64,000 nt of DNA, taken from NCBI GenBank assembly GCA_019686135.1, contig JADGHL010000001.1:1-64000 (forward strand), read 5' to 3'. The position numbers were made by a program, and so were the translations under genes. The stretch is from Myxococcaceae bacterium. Lineage in GTDB: Bacteria > Myxococcota > Myxococcia > Myxococcales > Myxococcaceae. This document shows, piece after piece, positions 20,966 to 62,783 of the stretch. Each line of letters opens with the position of its first letter. The stretch's first letter is position 1. A model generated the notes under the pieces. That model ran no database searches. It saw only the letters and a program-made list of their open reading frames with translations, and was not told where the DNA came from.

Positions 20966-21762
20966 CCGTGCGCACCTTCCGATGCGCCGGGCGGGTAGTA
21001 GGTGACACCTTCCGGCCGGGTGAGCCCGCCCTCCGGGAGCGGGACTTCGATCTCGTCGTGAGGAAGGAACGCCGGGCGGTCGACGCACAGCACCGTCTGC
21101 TCGTGCGCCGACGGATTGTCGTACCGGTGGGGAAAGCCCTTCGGCCACCGGAAACCCGTGCCCGCGGCCACCGGCGCGCCCTGGAGCCACAGCCCGCTGC
21201 CGAGCACCAGCTCGGACTCCTCCATCTCCCGGTGCTCGTGGGTGGCGATGGCGCCGCCGGGCTTGAGCCGGAGGCGATAGATGCCGGCGCCCCCGTCCTC
21301 GTAGATGACGTCCACCCGTCCGAAGGACTTCTCCTCCACCGCATAGCGGTACTCGTCGGCGCGGCGGTGGACGGCCAGCGCGGCCACGGTGCCGCCACTG
21401 AGCGCTTCGGGCTTGGCGAGGCGAAGCGTGACTGCCTGCACCTGCGCGCGGTGGAGGTCGGGCGTGGGCGGGGCGAGGATGTAGCGGCACAGCGCGTCGG
21501 CGGCGGCCTCGAGCAGCCGGAACGACGCGTTCTCGAGGAGGAAGCGGAGCTCGCCGGAGAGGCGCGCGTAGTCCACCGTGGCCTTGAGCCCGCCCCGGTT
21601 CGCCGCATCACGGGTGTCGAGATAGAGCGAGACGTCCAGCCGCAAGGGCTGCGGCGTGTGGCGTTCGGCGCGGTAGACGCCGACGATGCAACAGACCTGC
21701 ATCCCCTCCAGGGCGATCTCGTCGAGCGGACGGCCGTTGGCGTCGAGCGGGTGGAACGTCAT
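20962..21762 (-). CDS. Dihydroneopterin aldolase (FolB-like) fused to a cupin domain
   Basis: 266 residues. Residues ~10-125 follow the FolB/FolX fold: IALEGMQVCCIVGVYRAERHTPQPLRL, TVDYARLS, FRLLEAAADAL (Glu) and the catalytic Lys in RLAKPEAL, then AALAVHR. From ~135 a cupin follows: AGIYRLRLKPGGAIATHEHREMEESELVLG holds the H-x-H-x6-E metal motif and PHRYDNP the second-motif His. A FolB-cupin fusion is unusual. The cupin could act on an aldehyde or glycolaldehyde-type product or bind a pterin. It overlaps xthA by one base (TGATG) and the SDR by four (ATGA). Confidence 0.78.
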   Translation of the reverse strand: MTFHPLDANGRPLDEIALEGMQVCCIVGVYRAERHTPQPLRLDVSLYLDTRDAANRGGLKATVDYARLSGELRFLLENASFRLLEAAADALCRYILAPPTPDLHRAQVQAVTLRLAKPEALSGGTVAALAVHRRADEYRYAVEEKSFGRVDVIYEDGGAGIYRLRLKPGGAIATHEHREMEESELVLGSGLWLQGAPVAAGTGFRWPKGFPHRYDNPSAHEQTVLCVDRPAFLPHDEIEVPLPEGGLTRPEGVTYYPPGASEGAHG

Positions 21763-22544
21763 CACAGGACCCGCTCGTCGATCTCCACGCTGACCGGGCA
21801 GTGATCGCTGCCGTGGACCTCGGGGTGGATGGCGGCGTTCTTCACGTACGGCAGGGCCCCGGGCGAGGCGAGCACGTAGTCGAGCCGCCACCCGATGTTC
21901 TTCTCGCGCACGCCGAAGCGCTGGCTCCACCAGGTGTAGTGGCCGCCCTCCTTGCGGAAGTGGCGGAAGGTGTCGGTCCAGCCAGCCGTGATCCACCGCG
22001 AGAACGCGCGGCGCTCCTCCGGCCGGAAGCCCGAGTTCTCGCGGTTGTCGCGTGGACGGGCCAGGTCGATCTCCTCGTGCGCCGTGTTGAAGTCGCCCAT
22101 CACAAGGATCGGCTCGCCGGCCTCCATGGCCGGCTTCAGGCGCTCGAAGAGCCGCTGATAGAAGCGGAGCTTGAACGGGATGCGGGAGAGGTCGCGGTTC
22201 ACCCCGTTGCCGTTGGGGAAGTACGCGTTGACGATCCGGAGCCGCCCGAAGCGGGCGATCTGCACGCGGCCCTCGTCGTCGAACGCGCGGATGCCCATTC
22301 CCGGCTGAAGCTCGTTGGGGGCCTCGCGGGAGAACAGCCCCACGCCCGAATAGCCGGGGCGCACCGCGGGGGTGAAGTGCGCTCGCCAGCCCTTCGGTTC
22401 GCGCAGGCGATCCGGGATCTGCTCCACCGCCGCGCGGATCTCCTGGACGGCGATGATGTCCGCGCCGCAGCGTCCGAGCCAGCGCGCAAACCCCTTCCGA
22501 TGGGCTGCCCGGATTCCGTTCACGTTCCAGGACACGATCCGCAC
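21762..22544 (-). CDS. xthA: Exodeoxyribonuclease III / AP endonuclease
   Basis: 260 residues from GTG 22544. Repairs abasic sites and removes 3' blocks. EEP fold residues are all visible: Asn7 in SWNVNG, Glu35 in VQEIRA, the Tyr of VNAYFPNGNG, MGDFNTAHEEIDL, and the C-terminal GSDHCPV. The DNA-binding KFLR-like segment (PFKLRFYQRLFE) is as in ExoA/XthA. It directly precedes the FolB-cupin gene with a TGATG overlap. It could be an ordinary repair gene carried along in a long operon; its position downstream of a secreted nuclease cluster may be chance. Confidence 0.92.
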   Translation of the reverse strand: MRIVSWNVNGIRAAHRKGFARWLGRCGADIIAVQEIRAAVEQIPDRLREPKGWRAHFTPAVRPGYSGVGLFSREAPNELQPGMGIRAFDDEGRVQIARFGRLRIVNAYFPNGNGVNRDLSRIPFKLRFYQRLFERLKPAMEAGEPILVMGDFNTAHEEIDLARPRDNRENSGFRPEERRAFSRWITAGWTDTFRHFRKEGGHYTWWSQRFGVREKNIGWRLDYVLASPGALPYVKNAAIHPEVHGSDHCPVSVEIDERVL

Positions 22545-23975: not shown

Positions 23976-24500
23976 TCAGCAGGGCGTGACCGAACAGAAA
24001 CCCCATAGGCCCTTTCCCTCCGAAGAGGCCTGGTCCTCGAGCGTTTCGAACTCCTGCGCCCGGTCGTCCCCGTTGGGCGGGATGTGGAGGACGCACGCGT
24101 AGCCGCGTTCCACCATCAAGGTGTTGACCTCGCGGCCATCGAGAAAAACGTAGGCCAGAAGCCGTCCAAACCGGTCGGTGCACGTCTGGTCGTAGCGGAG
24201 CGTCACCGTCTGCGCGAGCACCAGCGACGCATTGAAGTCCCGGGCCTCGTTCCCGTAGCACTCCGCGTCCGACCCGACCTCCGGTGCGTCGATCATGAGG
24301 TAGCGGATCTTCTCTCCACTCTCGAGCGTGATGGTGTCCCCATCATGAACATCCGCCACCACGCCCGAAGAAGGCCCGCACTCCGATCCCCCGCAGCCAG
24401 CGAAAAAGGCCACCACACCCGCAACGACCACGCCGACCACCCACGCACGCAAGGACGTCCCATCCGGAGGCCCGAAGGGCCGGAGGATCACCCTACTCAC
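23976..24500 (-). CDS. Lipoprotein with staphylococcal-nuclease-like domain (small)
   Basis: 174 residues from GTG 24500. The N-terminus (WVVGVVVAGVVAFFAGC) gives a lipobox at Cys36, so the nuclease should be anchored outside the cytosol. The SNase core follows: DGDT (53-56, metal ligands), Arg66, Asp71-Ala-Pro-Glu74 (the usual DTPE with Thr replaced by Ala), and Arg113 in DRFGRLLAYVF. All catalytic Arg/Glu/Asp are kept. Four Cys in the mature part could form disulfides (CYGNEA, CTDRFG, YACVL, GFCSVTPC). SNases cut DNA and RNA with Ca2+. It is the last nuclease of a four-gene secreted set. Confidence 0.85.
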   Translation of the reverse strand: MSRVILRPFGPPDGTSLRAWVVGVVVAGVVAFFAGCGGSECGPSSGVVADVHDGDTITLESGEKIRYLMIDAPEVGSDAECYGNEARDFNASLVLAQTVTLRYDQTCTDRFGRLLAYVFLDGREVNTLMVERGYACVLHIPPNGDDRAQEFETLEDQASSEGKGLWGFCSVTPC

Positions 24501-24554
24501 TGCTCACCACCTGCCACGAACGACGTCCGCGCCGGCACTGCCCACCTCGAAGCC

Positions 24555-26789
24555 TCAGCTGCATGCGGCGTTCGCTTCACCCGGCGTTCCGAGATCGCCC
24601 GCGCCGTAGGATTTCGTGGAGGCGCAGAAGTTCGCCGGGTCGTCGTTGCTGACGGTGTCGAGCTTGTTCACGTCGAGTTGGGCGGAGGCGCCGGGGGTGG
24701 AGGTGCTGTAGGTGATGCGGTCCAGCTCGCCGCCCCCGCTGCGGAGGATGATGCTGCGCGCGCCGGAGTTGGAGAGCGCGAAGTTGAAGGTGCCGAACAC
24801 CGGCGGGAGCCCGCCGTTGGCGCCGCTGTCGGCGTTGCGTGCCAGCACCGCGTATTCGCCCGCGCGGAGGTGGAGGCAGTCCGGCGAGGAGAGCGTGGAG
24901 TTGCCGGTGCCCTCGTTGGCGACCTGCACGCCGTTGAGGTCCACGTCCGCGGTGGCCATCACTTCGATCCACTCGCCCGCGGTGTCGCTGACCGCCTCCG
25001 GGTTGGCCATGAATTCGGTGATGACGAGCTGGCCGGCGGTGGGGACGATGACGTCGCGCATGTTGCCGGTCGACGTGTCGTGGCACTGCGCGGGCGCGCC
25101 GCAGGCGGTGTTGGGGCCGCCCGGAGTGCCCTTGTCACCCTTTCCGTAGGACTGCGTGGCGTCGCAGCGGTTGGCGTCGTCGTCGTTGGCGACCGGATCG
25201 AGCGCGCCCGGATCCACTTGCACCGCCACACCCTGCGGGGAGGCGGTCCAGGAGACGCGATCCAGCTCGGTGGTGCCGTCGAGCAGGGCGATCGATCCGT
25301 TGTTGTCGACCAGGCCGCTCTTGAGCTCCGCGGTGACGAACGGCAGCCCGCCGTTGACGGAGGCGTCGCTGGAGCGCGCGAAGATGCCCTGCTGTCCAGG
25401 CTCGAAGTGCAGGCAGGTGGAGGAGGTGATCGCCGCGGGGGTGCCGGTGCCGACCTGCACGGACAGGTCGTTCAAATCGAACGGCGCCATCGCCGTGATC
25501 TCGAACCACTCGCCCACGGTGGCGCTCACCGCCGAAGGCCGCGCCATCCACTCGCTGATCACCACCGCGCCGGCGGCGGGCTTTTGGATCGGCCTGGGCA
25601 GGCCGCTGTCCGGGTCGCTGCACTGGCCCGGCGGTGGCGTGACGGGGCACGGGGAGTTCGCCGCCCTCGGGGTGCCCTTGTCCATGCCGGATCCATAGAC
25701 CTGCGAGGCGGCGCAGAAGTTGAGCGGGTCGTCGTTGGCGTCGGCGTTGAGCGCGTCCGGCGACAGCTGGGTGGCGGCGCCCGCGACGGTGCTGGTCCAC
25801 GAGACTTCGTCGATCAGCGTCTCGCCGGCGTAGATCGCCAGCGTTCCGTTGGAGTTGGCGAGCGTGGGGGAGATCGTCGCGAGGACATTGTCCAGCCCGC
25901 CGTTGGTGTCCGGGTTGTTGTTTCGCGCCAGCACGCCGTAGGTGCCCACGCCGATGGTGAGGCACCCTTCGGCGTTCAACGTCATCCGGTTGGAGCCGGA
26001 ATGCAGCGTGAGCCCGTTGAGGTCCACCGTGCGCGAGGGCGCATACAGCTCCACCCACTCACCCTGGTCGTCGCTCACCGCCTCGGGGTTGGCCATGAAC
26101 TCGGAGATGACCAGCTCACCGGGAGCCGGCGATTCGATGGTGCGCGCTTCGCTCGAGATCGCGTCGATGCAGGTGCCGCCGCCCACCACGCCGCATTTGG
26201 AGTTCTGCGCGCCCGGAGTGCCGAAGTTGATCCCGTCGAAGCTGGTCGTGGCGGAGCAGAAGTTCGTCGCCACGTCGTTCACGGCGGAGTCCGGCACGAG
26301 CGCCCCGTCGAGCTCCTGGCTGTGGCCGTCCTTGCCGCCGTCGACGTACTTGACCTCGTCCAGCACCTTCGTTCCGCACCGCACGGTCAGCGTCCCGCCG
26401 CTGTTGCGCAGCGCGCCCAAATCCGACCCGTAGCTGTAGCCCATCCACTCCGGCTTCGGCTCCTCGCGCGCGTCTCCCACCGCGAGGTACCCGCCGGCCG
26501 GGATCGTCACGCTGCGGAAGGTGTGCTTCTTCTCCGAGGCGCCCGCCGCGTCGGAGTGGGCGATTGAGATCCCCTTGAGGTCGATGTCCTTGCCGGACGC
26601 GTTGTACAGCTCGATGTACTCCTTCCCGGTGTCCGTCCCGGCCGGGTTGGCCATGAACTCGCTGATCACCAGATCGCCGGGGAGGCGGGCCTTGCACAGC
26701 TCGTCGATCGACGGCTCTTCGGGGCCACAGGAACTGAAGACGGCGCCGGCGGCGAGCGCGAGCGCGGCGTAGAGCGGTTGACGGTTCAT
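24555..26789 (-). CDS. Lipoprotein with four lamin-tail (LTD) domains
   Basis: 744 residues from ATG 26789, preceded by GAGGA. The lipobox is FSSC near residue 20. Four homologous units of ~170-185 residues each begin with a motif like LVISEFMANP-x-G-(E/K)-(W/Y)-(I/V)-E and end with a YG-x-D-x-GTPG-x-N-x-x-C motif: at about residues 33, 224, 403 and 587. These are lamin-tail domains, an Ig-like fold that in bacteria is found beside secreted nucleases and phosphatases and is thought to bind surfaces or nucleic acid. There is no catalytic domain. It lies between two SNase-like lipoprotein genes on the same strand. Confidence 0.85.
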   Translation of the reverse strand: MNRQPLYAALALAAGAVFSSCGPEEPSIDELCKARLPGDLVISEFMANPAGTDTGKEYIELYNASGKDIDLKGISIAHSDAAGASEKKHTFRSVTIPAGGYLAVGDAREEPKPEWMGYSYGSDLGALRNSGGTLTVRCGTKVLDEVKYVDGGKDGHSQELDGALVPDSAVNDVATNFCSATTSFDGINFGTPGAQNSKCGVVGGGTCIDAISSEARTIESPAPGELVISEFMANPEAVSDDQGEWVELYAPSRTVDLNGLTLHSGSNRMTLNAEGCLTIGVGTYGVLARNNNPDTNGGLDNVLATISPTLANSNGTLAIYAGETLIDEVSWTSTVAGAATQLSPDALNADANDDPLNFCAASQVYGSGMDKGTPRAANSPCPVTPPPGQCSDPDSGLPRPIQKPAAGAVVISEWMARPSAVSATVGEWFEITAMAPFDLNDLSVQVGTGTPAAITSSTCLHFEPGQQGIFARSSDASVNGGLPFVTAELKSGLVDNNGSIALLDGTTELDRVSWTASPQGVAVQVDPGALDPVANDDDANRCDATQSYGKGDKGTPGGPNTACGAPAQCHDTSTGNMRDVIVPTAGQLVITEFMANPEAVSDTAGEWIEVMATADVDLNGVQVANEGTGNSTLSSPDCLHLRAGEYAVLARNADSGANGGLPPVFGTFNFALSNSGARSIILRSGGGELDRITYSTSTPGASAQLDVNKLDTVSNDDPANFCASTKSYGAGDLGTPGEANAACS

Positions 26790-26845
26790 CCGGGTCCTCG
26801 TGCGCAGTCCGGCCATGGCTGCGCGTGGTGCAGAAGGGGGGAAGG

Positions 26846-28027
26846 TCACTCCTCGTCGTCCTCGAGCGGCGGCGGTGTCGAGAAGCTGGAGACGGTGCCG
26901 TCGCTGTCCGGCGTGGCGGTGATCTCCGTGCCGGAGGTGCCGGTGTCTTCGGTGAGCAGTCGGTCCAGCTCGGGCGAAGTCGCGAGCACCTGGCCGGGCA
27001 GGGTCACCTGCAGCTGCAGCTTCTCGGTGTGGTCGTAGCGGTTGACGTACTTGTGCACCGTGCCGCGGATCCGCACGTACTCGCCCTTTGCCATAAGCAC
27101 GCCGGACGCGAGCGCCACGTCCTTGTCGAAGAACACGACGTCGAAGTCGTGGCCGCGGCTTCGGCCGAGCTTCACCACCGTGGGACCACGATCACCCAGC
27201 TTGATCTCGTTGACGGCTCCGAGCACCACCACCTCCTCGCCGAGGTGCTGTTCGAGCTGGAGCAGCGCGTTCCACCGGGTGAGCGTGATGTAGTTCGGGT
27301 TGTCCTCCGCCTCCTTCTCGAAGCGGGCGATCACGTCCGCGCGGCCGTTCCACCAGCGCAGGCGTTCCTCGTAGTCGTCGTAGTGGAGCCGGTTGGGATC
27401 CCAGATCCCGATCTTCTGCGCCATCGCCTGCGCCTGGGCCTCGCGGAACTCCTTGTCGAAGCGCCGCGAGCGTCCGTACTTGGTGAAGTACGGCGCCATC
27501 CCGGCCCGCACGCATTCGATGTTGTAGTTCACCCACTCGCCGTTCTTCTTCGCGAACACGTAGGCGAGATAGCGGCCGTAGTAGTCGCGGATCTCGCCGG
27601 GGTGATCGCGCTCGAGGCGCACCGTGGTCACGCCTTCGAAGAAGGCCTGGGCCCAGTGTTTGGCGTCCTCGCCGAGCGGCGTGGCCATCTTCACCGGCCG
27701 GGTGGCGTCCCCCTTCATCTCCTTCTTGTACTGCTCCCAGCCGCGGGCGAAGGCCTCGCGCTCGAACGGCTTCTTGAAGGTCTCCTCGGTGTCGATCCCG
27801 AGCAGGCGCATGGAGCTGTCCAGGCCCTTGACCCGGATGGTGTCCCCGTCGATCACCGCGTTGGCGCCGTCGATCGGAAACTCCCCGATGACCAGGCCGA
27901 CCCGCTCGAGCTTCGAGAGGGTCTTGTTGGCCTCGCTCCGCGTGTAGCGGCGCTGCGCCCTGGTGGGGACGCACCCGGAGACGGCGACCACCGCGACGAG
28001 GATCAGGCTGAGGCTTCGCCGCTGCAT
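26846..28027 (-). CDS. Lipoprotein with staphylococcal-nuclease-like domain (large)
   Basis: 393 residues. Lipobox VSGC, Cys19. Residues ~52-220 are an SNase core with an insertion: DGDT (60-63), Arg74 and IDTEE (78-82) in RLLGIDTEE, and Arg in DYYGRYLAYVF. The insert (KMATPLGEDAKHWAQAF) corresponds to the variable loop. Residues ~260-345 (EEVVVLGAVNEIKLGDRGPTVVKLG...GEYVRIRGTVHKYVNRYDHTEKLQLQV) look like a second OB-fold, typically nucleic-acid binding. The acidic Ser/Thr tail may be disordered. It follows the HhH-barrel gene by 15 bases with a GGAGATGGG ribosome site, so the two are almost certainly co-transcribed. Confidence 0.85.
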   Translation of the reverse strand: MQRRSLSLILVAVVAVSGCVPTRAQRRYTRSEANKTLSKLERVGLVIGEFPIDGANAVIDGDTIRVKGLDSSMRLLGIDTEETFKKPFEREAFARGWEQYKKEMKGDATRPVKMATPLGEDAKHWAQAFFEGVTTVRLERDHPGEIRDYYGRYLAYVFAKKNGEWVNYNIECVRAGMAPYFTKYGRSRRFDKEFREAQAQAMAQKIGIWDPNRLHYDDYEERLRWWNGRADVIARFEKEAEDNPNYITLTRWNALLQLEQHLGEEVVVLGAVNEIKLGDRGPTVVKLGRSRGHDFDVVFFDKDVALASGVLMAKGEYVRIRGTVHKYVNRYDHTEKLQLQVTLPGQVLATSPELDRLLTEDTGTSGTEITATPDSDGTVSSFSTPPPLEDDEE

Positions 28028-28042
28028 CCCATCTCCCGCCTT

Positions 28043-30232
28043 CTAGAACTTCGACTCCAGAAGCACCTGGAGCCGGTGCTCGGGGTTCGGCCGCCGCGTC
28101 TGGGTGCTCTCGCGGTGGTCGACATAGACCAGCGCATCGTACCGCAGCCGACCGAGGAGCTGCCGCCCCGGAGACCAGGTGAGATCCACCCAGGTCCAGG
28201 AGGTCCGCTCGGTGTTCTCGTCGTTCGACAGGTCGAAGTCCTCGTACCGGGTCTTCGCGCGGATCTTGAACCCGGGGACGGGCCGCACCGCGACCTCGAA
28301 CCACACCGACGCGTCCCGCCGCGCGCCGCTGAGCAGCGTCTTGTAGGAGGGCTGGACGGCGAAGGTGACGAGGTCCCCGAACGGCGCCAGCTGCGCGCGC
28401 GCCGAGGTCCGCACGTACTTCGGATCGCAGTAATCGCCCGCAAGATCGGTGCTGCTGCCCAGCTCGCCGCTGGCGCCGATCTCGGGGTCTTCTCCGCTCA
28501 AGACGAGGAGCGGATCGATCTCGTCCGTGCACGGGTTGATCTGCTTGTACGCGAGCTTCGCCCACGCCGCCGCCTGGAAGAAGCGCCAGCCCTTGAAGTC
28601 GGCGCGGACGGACGCCTCGGTGTTGAGGGTGCCGGCGCTGTCCTGGACCTTGCCGTCGTACGGGAGCGTCCAGGTGTTGAGCGTGGCGCGCACGCGCCAG
28701 TCCTCGCTGAACGCCTGCAGGTACCGAATCCGCGCGCCCAGCTCGTTGCGGACGCGCTGCCCGTCGAGCTCGTCGGAGCCGGAGGGCGCGTGTGCGTACG
28801 GGTTGAGGAAGTGGCGGTCGTAGTAGCGCAGGGACAGTTCGAGCTCCTGCTTCTTCTGGCTGTACACGGTGCGCTGCTCCACCGCGTAGCCGCCGCCGGC
28901 GTTGCCCGGTTCGTGATCGAAGCTGCGGGCCGCCTCCGCGTAGAAATTGATGGGGCCTACCTTCGTCGCGCCGTTGATGCCGATCGCCCCGAAGGCGCCG
29001 CCGTAGGGCCAGGAGGCGTAGTCCTGGAAGTCGAGCGCGATCCCGGGGACGTTCCAGATCGGCAGCGCGTAGTAACCGGTGAGGCCTGCGCGGGTGCGCT
29101 CGTCGACCTTAATCGTGACATTGCCGCCGCCGGTCAGCTCGTTCATTACGTCCGGCAGCGTGACGTAGTTGAACCGCCGCACGCCGTCCGGCGCCTCGTA
29201 GACAGGCGGGGCGGAGCAGGTGTCCGAGTCGTCGTGCGGGTCCTCGCACCGGCTGCGGTCGAAGACCTGATACTGGTAGATGGACCGCGACTGGAACGAC
29301 CCGAAGCCGGTGAGGTCCAGCCGCGCGGTGCCGAACGAGAGGTCCTGGATGCTGGCGGCGACGCCGCGGAAAGAATCCGGCCACGCATAATCCGGCGTGG
29401 CGCGAAGCTCCTCGAGCTCTTCGCACGCTCCGCCCGAGTACCGGCAGAAGGTCACCAGGTCGGATCGGTTGTAGACGATGTCGTCGCCGTAGATCCCGTT
29501 GGGCTGCGTGCGCCGCGCGTTGTCCAGGGTGAGGCGTTCGGCGAACCCCAGCCGGAACGTGCCGGCGAGGATCGTCCGGCCGGTGGACTTCCACTGCACG
29601 AACAGCTTCGGCAGATACACGCCGTAGCGGGCTGGTTGCGCCATCAGCGCGTCGCCGATCGGGTCGTAGCGGACGCTGCCCAGCCGGTACCGCGTGGTCG
29701 TGAGCGCCACTCCGGCCGACAGGTCGAACGGGAGCTTGAGGCGGCTCTTGAGCATGAGCGGCGGCGACACCGGGTCGGAGAGGGCGTAGCGCGAACGCAG
29801 GCTGACCTTTCCGGAGACGGGGATGCGGGCGGCGCGTTCGGAGATCACCAGGAAGGGGGCGATCTGCGCGAGCTGCTCCTGGGTGATGGCCCCTGCCTCC
29901 ACCAGCGCCTTCGGATCCTCGATGTACCCGTCGAGCTTGCGGTACTGGAGGATGGCGTCCACCTGCGCGCGGGTGAGCGTCGGCAGCGCGTAGAGCTCGT
30001 CCGCGTCGGCGGTGTTGAGGTCCACTCCGGTGTCGAGCAGATCGACCAGCGTCTCGAGCTGATCGTCGTCGATGACGCCCTGCTGGTGGAGGTCGTAGAG
30101 GTCGTCCTCGGTGTCGATGCGGATATCCGCTCCGTAGTCTTCGGCGAGCGCGCGTGGCGCGGCGCAGCACAAAAGGGCGAGGGCGAGGCGAACGGCGGCG
30201 CTGGATCGTGCGGACGTCAGGAGTGCACCCAC
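28043..30232 (-). CDS. Outer-membrane beta-barrel protein with N-terminal ComEA-like helix-hairpin-helix
   Basis: 729 residues. Signal peptide 1-30 (ending RALA). Residues ~34-70 are very acidic and helical. Residues 71-127 match a ComEA-type HhH pair: DLNTADADELYALPTLTRAQVDAILQYR...DGYIEDPKAL...AITQEQLAQIAPF. From ~135 to the C-terminus the sequence is amphipathic strands with aromatic girdles (LRSRYALSDP, ELSLRYYDRHF, KIRAKTRYEDFDL, RLRYDALVYVDHRES) ending in a terminal Phe (LLESKF), which is typical of BAM-assembled barrels. HhH domains bind DNA without sequence specificity. A DNA-binding plug on an outer-membrane barrel is a strong hint for extracellular-DNA handling, but transport is inferred. 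Confidence 0.8.
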   Translation of the reverse strand: MGALLTSARSSAAVRLALALLCCAAPRALAEDYGADIRIDTEDDLYDLHQQGVIDDDQLETLVDLLDTGVDLNTADADELYALPTLTRAQVDAILQYRKLDGYIEDPKALVEAGAITQEQLAQIAPFLVISERAARIPVSGKVSLRSRYALSDPVSPPLMLKSRLKLPFDLSAGVALTTTRYRLGSVRYDPIGDALMAQPARYGVYLPKLFVQWKSTGRTILAGTFRLGFAERLTLDNARRTQPNGIYGDDIVYNRSDLVTFCRYSGGACEELEELRATPDYAWPDSFRGVAASIQDLSFGTARLDLTGFGSFQSRSIYQYQVFDRSRCEDPHDDSDTCSAPPVYEAPDGVRRFNYVTLPDVMNELTGGGNVTIKVDERTRAGLTGYYALPIWNVPGIALDFQDYASWPYGGAFGAIGINGATKVGPINFYAEAARSFDHEPGNAGGGYAVEQRTVYSQKKQELELSLRYYDRHFLNPYAHAPSGSDELDGQRVRNELGARIRYLQAFSEDWRVRATLNTWTLPYDGKVQDSAGTLNTEASVRADFKGWRFFQAAAWAKLAYKQINPCTDEIDPLLVLSGEDPEIGASGELGSSTDLAGDYCDPKYVRTSARAQLAPFGDLVTFAVQPSYKTLLSGARRDASVWFEVAVRPVPGFKIRAKTRYEDFDLSNDENTERTSWTWVDLTWSPGRQLLGRLRYDALVYVDHRESTQTRRPNPEHRLQVLLESKF

Positions 30233-35658: not shown

Positions 35659-36561
35659 TCAGGGGGTCGCGCGCGCCGCTGCCGGAGTGGACGCGCCGCC
35701 GCCCGTGGCCACGACCGTCCGGGGCGCAGGCGGGAGCCCGAAGTCCACCACCACCGGGTAGTGATCCGACGCGAGCTGTCGCACCACGAACGCGCGCCGG
35801 GGCTGAAGCTCGCGTGAGGCGAGCACGTAGTCCAACCTCAGGTCCGCGAGCGGGAAGGGGAGCGGGTACGTCGATGGGCTGCCCTCGCCCGCGAGCGCGA
35901 AGGCGTCCGCGAACCGCCGCTTCAGCAGGAGGAGCGCCGGGGACTCGGCCTCGTCGTTGAAGTCTCCCATCAGCATCCGGGGAAACGGATCGCCGTGCAT
36001 CAGCCGGGCGATGAACCGCGCCTGCAGCGTGCGCACCGCCGAGCGCGCCGGAGCGTTGGACAGGTGCGTGACGTAGACGCTGAACGGCCGCCCGTCGATC
36101 GCCAGCACCACCCGGCCGACGGTCCGAGGTTCGGCGCCGCGCGGCGTGGGCAGCCGGAACTGCGCCCGGTCTAGGATCTCGTATCGCGACAGCAGGGCGA
36201 CGCCGTAGTCCCCGCCGAAGAGCGATGTGGCGCGGAAGAACACGAAGTGGTCGTACCCGGCGCGCCGGGCGAGCTCTTCGGCCTGGTTCAACCCATGGGC
36301 CCGCGTGGTGCCGCGGTCGACCTCGTTGAGCGCGACCACGTCCGCGTCTTGCGCGCGGATCAGCGCGGCCACCGCGTCCAGGCCCGCGCGGGCGCTCTGG
36401 ATGTTGAAGGTCATCACCCGGAGTGGCCGGCTCAGCGCGGCAGCGCGCACGACGTTTCCGGGAAGTGGATCGGCGGCCGCGCGCGCAGGCCGCGGGCCGG
36501 TGGCGCAGGCGGAGGCGAGGAGGACGACGAATGCGGCAGTATTGATGCGGGTTCGGGTCAT
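35659..36561 (-). CDS. Secreted endonuclease/exonuclease/phosphatase-family lipoprotein
   Basis: 300 residues from ATG 36561. Lipobox LASAC near residue 20. The EEP fold is complete: VMTFNIQSARAG (Asn), ALNEVDRGTTRAHG (Glu), VTHLSNAPARSAVRTLQA, MGDFNDEAESPAL (Asp/Asn), LRLDYVLAS and SDHYPVVVDF (Asp-His). This clade includes secreted DNases, sphingomyelinase-like and inositol phosphatase-like hydrolases, so the substrate cannot be fixed from motifs. The low-complexity Thr/Ala C-terminus is probably disordered. It is divergent from the giant surface protein gene, with 234 bases between. Confidence 0.82.
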   Translation of the reverse strand: MTRTRINTAAFVVLLASACATGPRPARAAADPLPGNVVRAAALSRPLRVMTFNIQSARAGLDAVAALIRAQDADVVALNEVDRGTTRAHGLNQAEELARRAGYDHFVFFRATSLFGGDYGVALLSRYEILDRAQFRLPTPRGAEPRTVGRVVLAIDGRPFSVYVTHLSNAPARSAVRTLQARFIARLMHGDPFPRMLMGDFNDEAESPALLLLKRRFADAFALAGEGSPSTYPLPFPLADLRLDYVLASRELQPRRAFVVRQLASDHYPVVVDFGLPPAPRTVVATGGGASTPAAARATP

Positions 36562-36795
36562 CTGGATCCGGCCCTCGCGCCCTCCCGCGCGGGGCCGCAG
36601 GATACGCGCCCCTTTCCCCGCTTCTCCAGCACGGGATGAACCGTCCGCTGACGCCCGGCCGGACAGGGAGCAAACCCTTTGAGCCAAAACCGATGCGGCT
36701 ACGAGGGGTTATGCCGTCCGGCCTCGTGCAATTCCGACGGAAACCTGCGAGAGTCCCGCGCCGCTTCCCTTCCGCCCCGTGCGAGGCAGCACGCC

Positions 36796-62668: not shown

Positions 62669-62687
62669 CGCGCCAGCGTTGAACGAG

Positions 62688-62783
62688 CGGTAGAGCACAG
62701 GAATCGAACCTGCCACGGGCTGCTCTCGCAGTCCGTCACCGGTTTTGAAGACCGGGCCGACCACCAGATTCGGTCGCTCTACC
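62688..62783 (-). tRNA. selC: tRNA-Sec (selenocysteine, anticodon TCA)
   Basis: On the minus strand, an 8-bp acceptor GGTAGAGC/GCTCTACC (one pair longer than a normal tRNA), D-arm region CCGAATCTGGTGGTCGG, anticodon arm CCGGT-CTTCAAA-ACCGG with TCA anticodon, a long variable arm (about GACGGACTGC/GCAGCCCGTG), and a 5-bp T stem GCAGG-TTCGATT-CCTGT. Together these are specific for bacterial tRNA-Sec (8+5 form). Position 73 is G and CCA is not encoded. The organism therefore should make selenoproteins; no selA, selB or selD lies in the window. Confidence 0.93.

Follow-up and report, generated by a model that had tools for sequence, protein, structure and literature searches.

A conserved myxococcal gene set that joins a predicted outer-membrane barrel to lamin-tail and nuclease lipoproteins, with a possible role in nucleic-acid scavenging

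What might a myxobacterium do with four adjacent genes that combine an outer-membrane barrel, a lamin-tail lipoprotein, and two nucleases? Little is known of how predatory bacteria bring DNA-derived nutrients across their outer membrane. The window analyzed here is a stretch of 64,000 nucleotides (positions 1 to 64,000 of contig JADGHL010000001.1) from a Myxococcaceae bacterium; the contig belongs to a genome of 5.5 Mb that is 97% complete and has Myxococcus-type genomes among its relatives in the same family. A first-pass annotation had read the four genes as a secreted set that captures and processes extracellular DNA. The genes and their domains are as follows.

28043..30232, minus strand: BAR, predicted outer-membrane β-barrel with an N-terminal (HhH)2 domain, 729 aa (open reading frame, HHH_3 match, AlphaFold model, homologues)
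29849..30031, minus strand: ComEA-like (HhH)2 domain of BAR, residues 68-128 (hairpins PTLT and AGAIT replacing PGIG and GIG)
28046..29815, minus strand: predicted transmembrane barrel of BAR, residues 140-729 (DSSP of the model)
26846..28027, minus strand: N1, lipoprotein SNase with a C-terminal OB-fold, 393 aa (PF00565, 1.7e-14; homologues)
27398..27811, minus strand: SNase domain of N1 (profile match and alignment to staphylococcal nuclease)
26972..27316, minus strand: OB-fold domain of N1, residues 238-352 (PF01336, model, Foldseek)
24555..26789, minus strand: LTD, acidic lipoprotein with four lamin-tail domains, 744 aa (PF00932, 5.9e-44, 4 stretches)
26681-26379, 26132-25794, 25583-25245, and 25040-24705, minus strand: lamin-tail domains of LTD (PF00932 domain positions)
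23976..24500, minus strand: N2, SNase lipoprotein, 174 aa (PF00565, 6.6e-21; lipobox FAGC)

The open reading frames lie head to tail at 30232-28043, 28027-26846, 26789-24555, and 24500-23976, as the annotation had placed them. With the ATG at 26789, which is preceded by a GAGGA motif, taken as the start of LTD, the annotation's distances of 15, 56, and 54 bases between the genes are reproduced. BAR and N2 both begin with GTG behind weak ribosome sites, so their starts are uncertain. We infer that the four genes are co-transcribed; a promoter scan of the locus returned no promoter-like site, and a terminator scan found terminators near chance level. Export sequences could be read on all four products, namely a signal peptide on BAR and the lipoboxes VSGC (N1), FSSC (LTD), and FAGC (N2). 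Among homologues, a simple lipobox pattern fitted 11 of 15 N1, 16 of 20 N2, and 15 of 23 LTD sequences, a count in which the pattern is too strict for several misses that have a cysteine after a hydrophobic stretch and in which some fits possibly fall on the wrong cysteine. The word "secreted" is better replaced by lipoprotein, with a probable anchorage in the outer membrane.

We then assessed how far the set is conserved. Of 60 relatives, 32 carry a BAR homologue, and among 28 loci the order BAR-N1-LTD-N2 or BAR-LTD-N2 recurred wherever the contig was long enough, with the exception of L052 and L059, which carry BAR-LTD without N2. A scan of named genomes added Myxococcus, Corallococcus, Pyxidicoccus, Archangium, and Citreicoccus as carriers, and a BAR profile search placed the gene in 104 of about 195 sampled Myxococcota genomes. 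N2 was present in 93 of the 104 genomes with BAR compared with 2 of 92 without it. Wherever N2 and BAR shared a contig (79 of 79 cases), they lay close together on the same strand, within 4 kb, with N2 1.2-3.9 kb downstream of BAR in 67 and at most about 1 kb upstream in 12. The Fisher value for this co-occurrence is 2e-40 but ignores shared ancestry; therefore, the case for conservation rests instead on the permuted gene order. Myxococcaceae, Myxococcus included, have BAR-(N1)-LTD-N2, and most other families have LTD-(N1)-LTD-N2-BAR or LTD-N2-BAR, so that across a tree of 72 BAR sequences the clustering was kept while the order changed. LTD adjoins BAR, in either order, in nearly every locus where the contig reaches. 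N1 is absent throughout the Myxococcus/Archangium clade of this tree, which we read as a loss because branches outside the clade carry it.

These data clearly contradict the possibility, raised in the first-pass annotation, that the gene order is kept in no related genome. Because the set is kept together across much of the phylum, we conclude that it is a conserved functional unit and very probably a genuine apparatus that digests nucleic acids and perhaps imports them.

Gene clustering over the flanks revealed no further families conserved beside the set at that depth, and the recurrent neighbors look like genus-level synteny. A wider operon including the FHA, RDD-TPR, or hexapeptide neighbors was rejected, as these are not conserved in relatives. 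A TonB-like gene lies 0.5-4 kb upstream of BAR on the same strand in ten loci (L034-L036, L038, L041, L042, L044, L052, L072, and L097); it is absent from the window and from other clades, and its association is probably synteny. A search bearing on plasmid spread gave no plasmid match, and a motif scan tuned to the BAR family over broader genome contigs returned only myxococcal-type loci. Two records in the BAR tree are likely mislabeled: L089 (BNCN01000008.1), titled Comamonas sp., falls inside Myxococcus, and L087 (DYKK01000097.1), titled Anaeromyxobacter dehalogenans, is placed with another family of myxobacteria.

The 5.5-Mb genome has no SNase genes other than N1 and N2, and both exceed the PF00565 cut-off of 21 bits, with 54.6 and 75.2 bits, respectively. 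The annotation had reported catalytic residues in both, and alignment to the nuclease structures 1syg and 1f2y bore this out. In the numbering of staphylococcal nuclease, the equivalents of Asp19/21, Arg35, Asp40, Glu43, and Arg87 are present, and across 15 N1 and 20 N2 sequences these positions vary little or not at all. N2 matches the staphylococcal nuclease profile at 2e-29, whereas N1 aligns in two pieces around a long insert; its 14 homologues are 52-64% identical, with catalytic residues invariant but for one threonine. Judged by their sequences, N1 and N2 are thus two intact-looking nucleases. They share the fold and catalytic residues of the thermonuclease family and differ from staphylococcal nuclease in their lipoprotein anchors, in the OB-fold and insert of N1, and in several cysteines conserved among N2 homologues (window 23976-24500), which suggests disulfides. 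The OB-fold, overlooked in the first reading, was detected as PF01336 in 13 of 14 N1 sequences and modeled with a pLDDT of 86; its top Foldseek matches were the AsnRS/AspRS anticodon OB domain, SSB, and MCM. Two SNases and an OB-fold make nucleic acids the likely substrate, in agreement with the earlier proposal.

The third gene likewise matched its description, as Pfam finds four PF00932 stretches in LTD (149 bits against a cut-off of 34.3), and the domain occurs in 23 of 23 homologues. The protein carries a net charge of −52. Lamin-tail domains are also found in several other proteins of the same genome, and its contigs C120 and C200 each hold three large lamin-tail reading frames within about 7 kb, forming tandem arrays. 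What lamin-tail domains do in bacteria is still to be established (PMC6085458), and DNA-foraging marine bacteria have also been drawn with such proteins (PMC8289736). The ExeM-type nucleases of Shewanella and Vibrio likewise combine lamin-tail and OB-fold modules with a nuclease for extracellular DNA (PMC6085458). ExeM, however, is one polypeptide with an EEP nuclease; in the set studied here the functions are divided among separate lipoproteins, the nuclease is an SNase, a barrel is added, and Pfam found no EEP domain in any of the four genes.

The smallest form of the set is BAR with LTD. In genus g21, whose genomes measure 2.1-2.7 Mb, the two genes are adjacent, N2 is missing, and no SNase is encoded anywhere in the genome; L052 also carries BAR-LTD alone. 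LTD rather than a nuclease is therefore the most constant partner of BAR, and the retention of the pair in g21 indicates that nuclease activity is not essential to the core.

There is no close solved relative of BAR. The AlphaFold model, built with 28 homologues (pLDDT 84, pTM 0.82), shows helices at residues 42-127 followed by about 24 membrane strands, as counted by eye from the DSSP line, that end at residue 728 before a C-terminal Phe729. The nearest solved structures in Foldseek were the FimD/PapC usher, TonB-dependent receptors, and MtrB, with a query TM-score of at most 0.37. Pfam, searched at E up to 1, matched only HHH_3 and, below threshold, T2SSK; the usher, TonB-dependent receptor, MtrB, and Slam families and the TonB plug domain were all absent. 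The predicted barrel is usher-sized and unlike any solved family. FimD and PapC resemble it in having 24 strands and in giving the closest Foldseek matches, and differ in the low TM-score, the missing usher match, and the lack of conserved chaperone or pilin genes. The earlier description of BAR as an outer-membrane barrel is thus upheld by a confident model, which predicts a large structure of about 24 strands rather than a small solute porin.

How might these parts work together? We propose that the four genes form an operon whose products exploit extracellular nucleic acids at the outer membrane, a scavenging unit that does not depend on TonB, and we consider the chances of this proposal to be about even. 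The two anchored SNases would cut DNA and/or RNA from prey, dead kin, or the surroundings, the OB-fold of N1 may hold the substrate, and uptake would take place at BAR and its constant partner LTD, the former serving as a wide non-TonB channel and the latter as its lid or docking platform. Fragments would then enter the periplasm through the BAR channel, presumably as nutrients. By analogy only, the arrangement recalls SusC/SusD nutrient pairs, in which a barrel, a co-encoded lipoprotein, and degradative lipoproteins share one operon. Here, by contrast, no TonB plug was found, the barrel has about 24 rather than 22 strands, and LTD stands in place of SusD.

The same barrel could instead face outward. 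The main rival to scavenging, which fits the gene set nearly as well, is that BAR works like Slam, as a translocator dedicated to flipping or secreting the lipoproteins encoded with it (LTD and the SNases) across the outer membrane to the cell surface; the nucleases displayed there would digest prey or matrix DNA, with no import. Every conserved partner of BAR is lipoprotein-like and co-encoded, even the smallest form comprises BAR and one lipoprotein, and the size of the barrel resembles that of protein-translocating ushers. BAR nevertheless lacks a match to the usher or Slam barrel families and an N-terminal TPR in Pfam (E up to 1). Slam barrels are smaller and carry TPR domains, and we know of no periplasmic HhH domain in Slam-like exporters; both points count against export, which we regard as rather unlikely.

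The first-pass annotation had assigned the capture of DNA to the HhH domain, as a plug of the barrel. The fold is well supported: HHH_3 matches residues 68-128 at 1.9e-11 (44.4 bits against a cut-off of 27), the nearest relative by profile is ComEA (8dss, 1.6e-8), the (HhH)2 domain was found in 22 of 28 BAR sequences at E 0.01, and its helices are present in the predicted structure. The hairpin glycines, however, are lost. PTLT and AGAIT occupy the places of the canonical PGIG and GIG in the window; of 72 BAR sequences, 68 cover hairpin 1, and only 2 of these 68 have GxG there, most reading GxT or NxT. Corallococcus, Pyxidicoccus, Citreicoccus, and several Myxococcus have lost part of the second hairpin region. 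The net charge of the domain is −6 in the window and near zero or slightly positive in one homologue clade. By comparison, both hairpins are intact (PGVG and KGVG) in a ComEA-like protein that the genome encodes on another contig, and BAR itself scored 15 bits against 152 with NCBIfam comE, below threshold. The BAR domain also differs from ComEA, the periplasmic competence DNA receptor, in being acidic and fused to a barrel of about 24 strands in a 729-aa protein. Following the glycine count and the comparison with the genome's own ComEA-like protein, the DNA clamp was dropped as the default reading. The domain seems to have lost its grip on DNA, with the fold present and the DNA-contact signature absent, a loss that is still compatible with some DNA binding. 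If scavenging is correct, this periplasmic domain would more likely gate the barrel or dock a partner than bind DNA.

These findings also bear on natural transformation, in which BAR would admit DNA, the HhH domain would pass it to ComEA and ComEC, and the SNases would make ends or trim. The ComEA-like profile of the BAR domain and the existence of ComEC and a separate ComEA-like protein in the genome are consistent with such a route. Transformation in Riemerella depends on an outer-membrane barrel, a surface partner of that barrel, and an HhH protein (PMC8459023), a combination of parts tied to DNA that resembles ours at the level of description; there, the HhH protein is a separate polypeptide. 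Transformation fits worse than scavenging, however, because ComEC is near-universal in the phylum with or without BAR and because the BAR HhH is degenerate. The near-universality of ComEC also makes its co-occurrence uninformative as a link to competence. In addition, long DNA would not survive unspecific nucleases placed where it enters, and clustering of the flanking genes found no com genes conserved beside the operon. We consider this route improbable.

Returning to scavenging, the proposal draws on the apparently complete catalytic sets of two SNases, on the OB-fold of N1, on the conserved linkage of BAR, N2, and LTD, on a confidently predicted barrel that has about 24 strands and ends in an aromatic residue, and, by analogy, on the co-occurrence of lamin-tail and OB domains in the extracellular nuclease ExeM (PMC6085458). 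Against it, the barrel could export or display its neighbors, the HhH domain is acidic and without glycines, LTD is strongly acidic, g21 retains BAR and LTD without an SNase, and no nucleoside or phosphate genes were found conserved beside the set by flank clustering. Of the original claim that the set captures and processes extracellular DNA, the conserved unit, the nucleases, the barrel, and the likely substrate stand, and DNA capture by the HhH domain does not.

The nucleases might also serve without any uptake, by remodeling the eDNA of the cell's own biofilm matrix or removing foreign DNA. eDNA is structural in Myxococcus xanthus biofilms, and the secretion of many DNA hydrolases has been attributed to this species (PMC9073016). 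Such a role would leave unexplained the conserved large barrel, the occurrence of BAR and LTD without any SNase, and the retention of the set in small gut-type genomes, and we give it only a slight chance.

A side test concerned the need for purines. In family f3 (G037, G044, G049, G053, and G056), PurD and PurH are absent in 5 of 5 sampled genomes, 4 of which carry BAR; their absence suggests a need for purine salvage, a point in favor of scavenging, and f3 is a probable purine-auxotroph family of Myxococcales. The family includes genomes of 7.6 and 8.7 Mb, and at least one member comes from an animal gut. PurH is present in nearly all genomes with BAR. Purine need is thus not linked to BAR in general, and a connection with auxotrophy was rejected as confined to this one family, with no general enrichment.

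In a bolder form of scavenging, nucleic acids would cross the outer membrane through a conduit dedicated to them and made of BAR and LTD, with no need of TonB or a pilus secretin; LTD would be its lamin-tail lid, anchored nucleases would feed it, and the modeled barrel is perhaps wide enough for DNA or long oligonucleotides. We regard this as possible, if on the unlikely side. If true, it would give bacterial multi-LTD lipoproteins a function. The parts are known already. For their fixed combination, in which a multi-LTD lipoprotein and an HhH-bearing barrel of about 24 strands make up the core pair, targeted literature searches of open-licence papers returned no description, and an earlier account may exist elsewhere. 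As the conserved set of three to four genes includes Myxococcus, both nutrient passage and the role of bacterial lamin-tail domains become testable in a genetically workable species.

Finally, the window holds further genes of note. Two of these are not kept next to the set in relatives: one, at 35659-36687 on the minus strand and ~5.4 kb upstream of the operon, encodes a probable lipoprotein of the endonuclease/exonuclease/phosphatase superfamily (7e-29), and the other, at 21762-22544, is exonuclease III-like. ARAGORN and Rfam agree on a selenocysteine tRNA gene at 62687-62783 on the minus strand, indicating that the organism probably makes selenoproteins.
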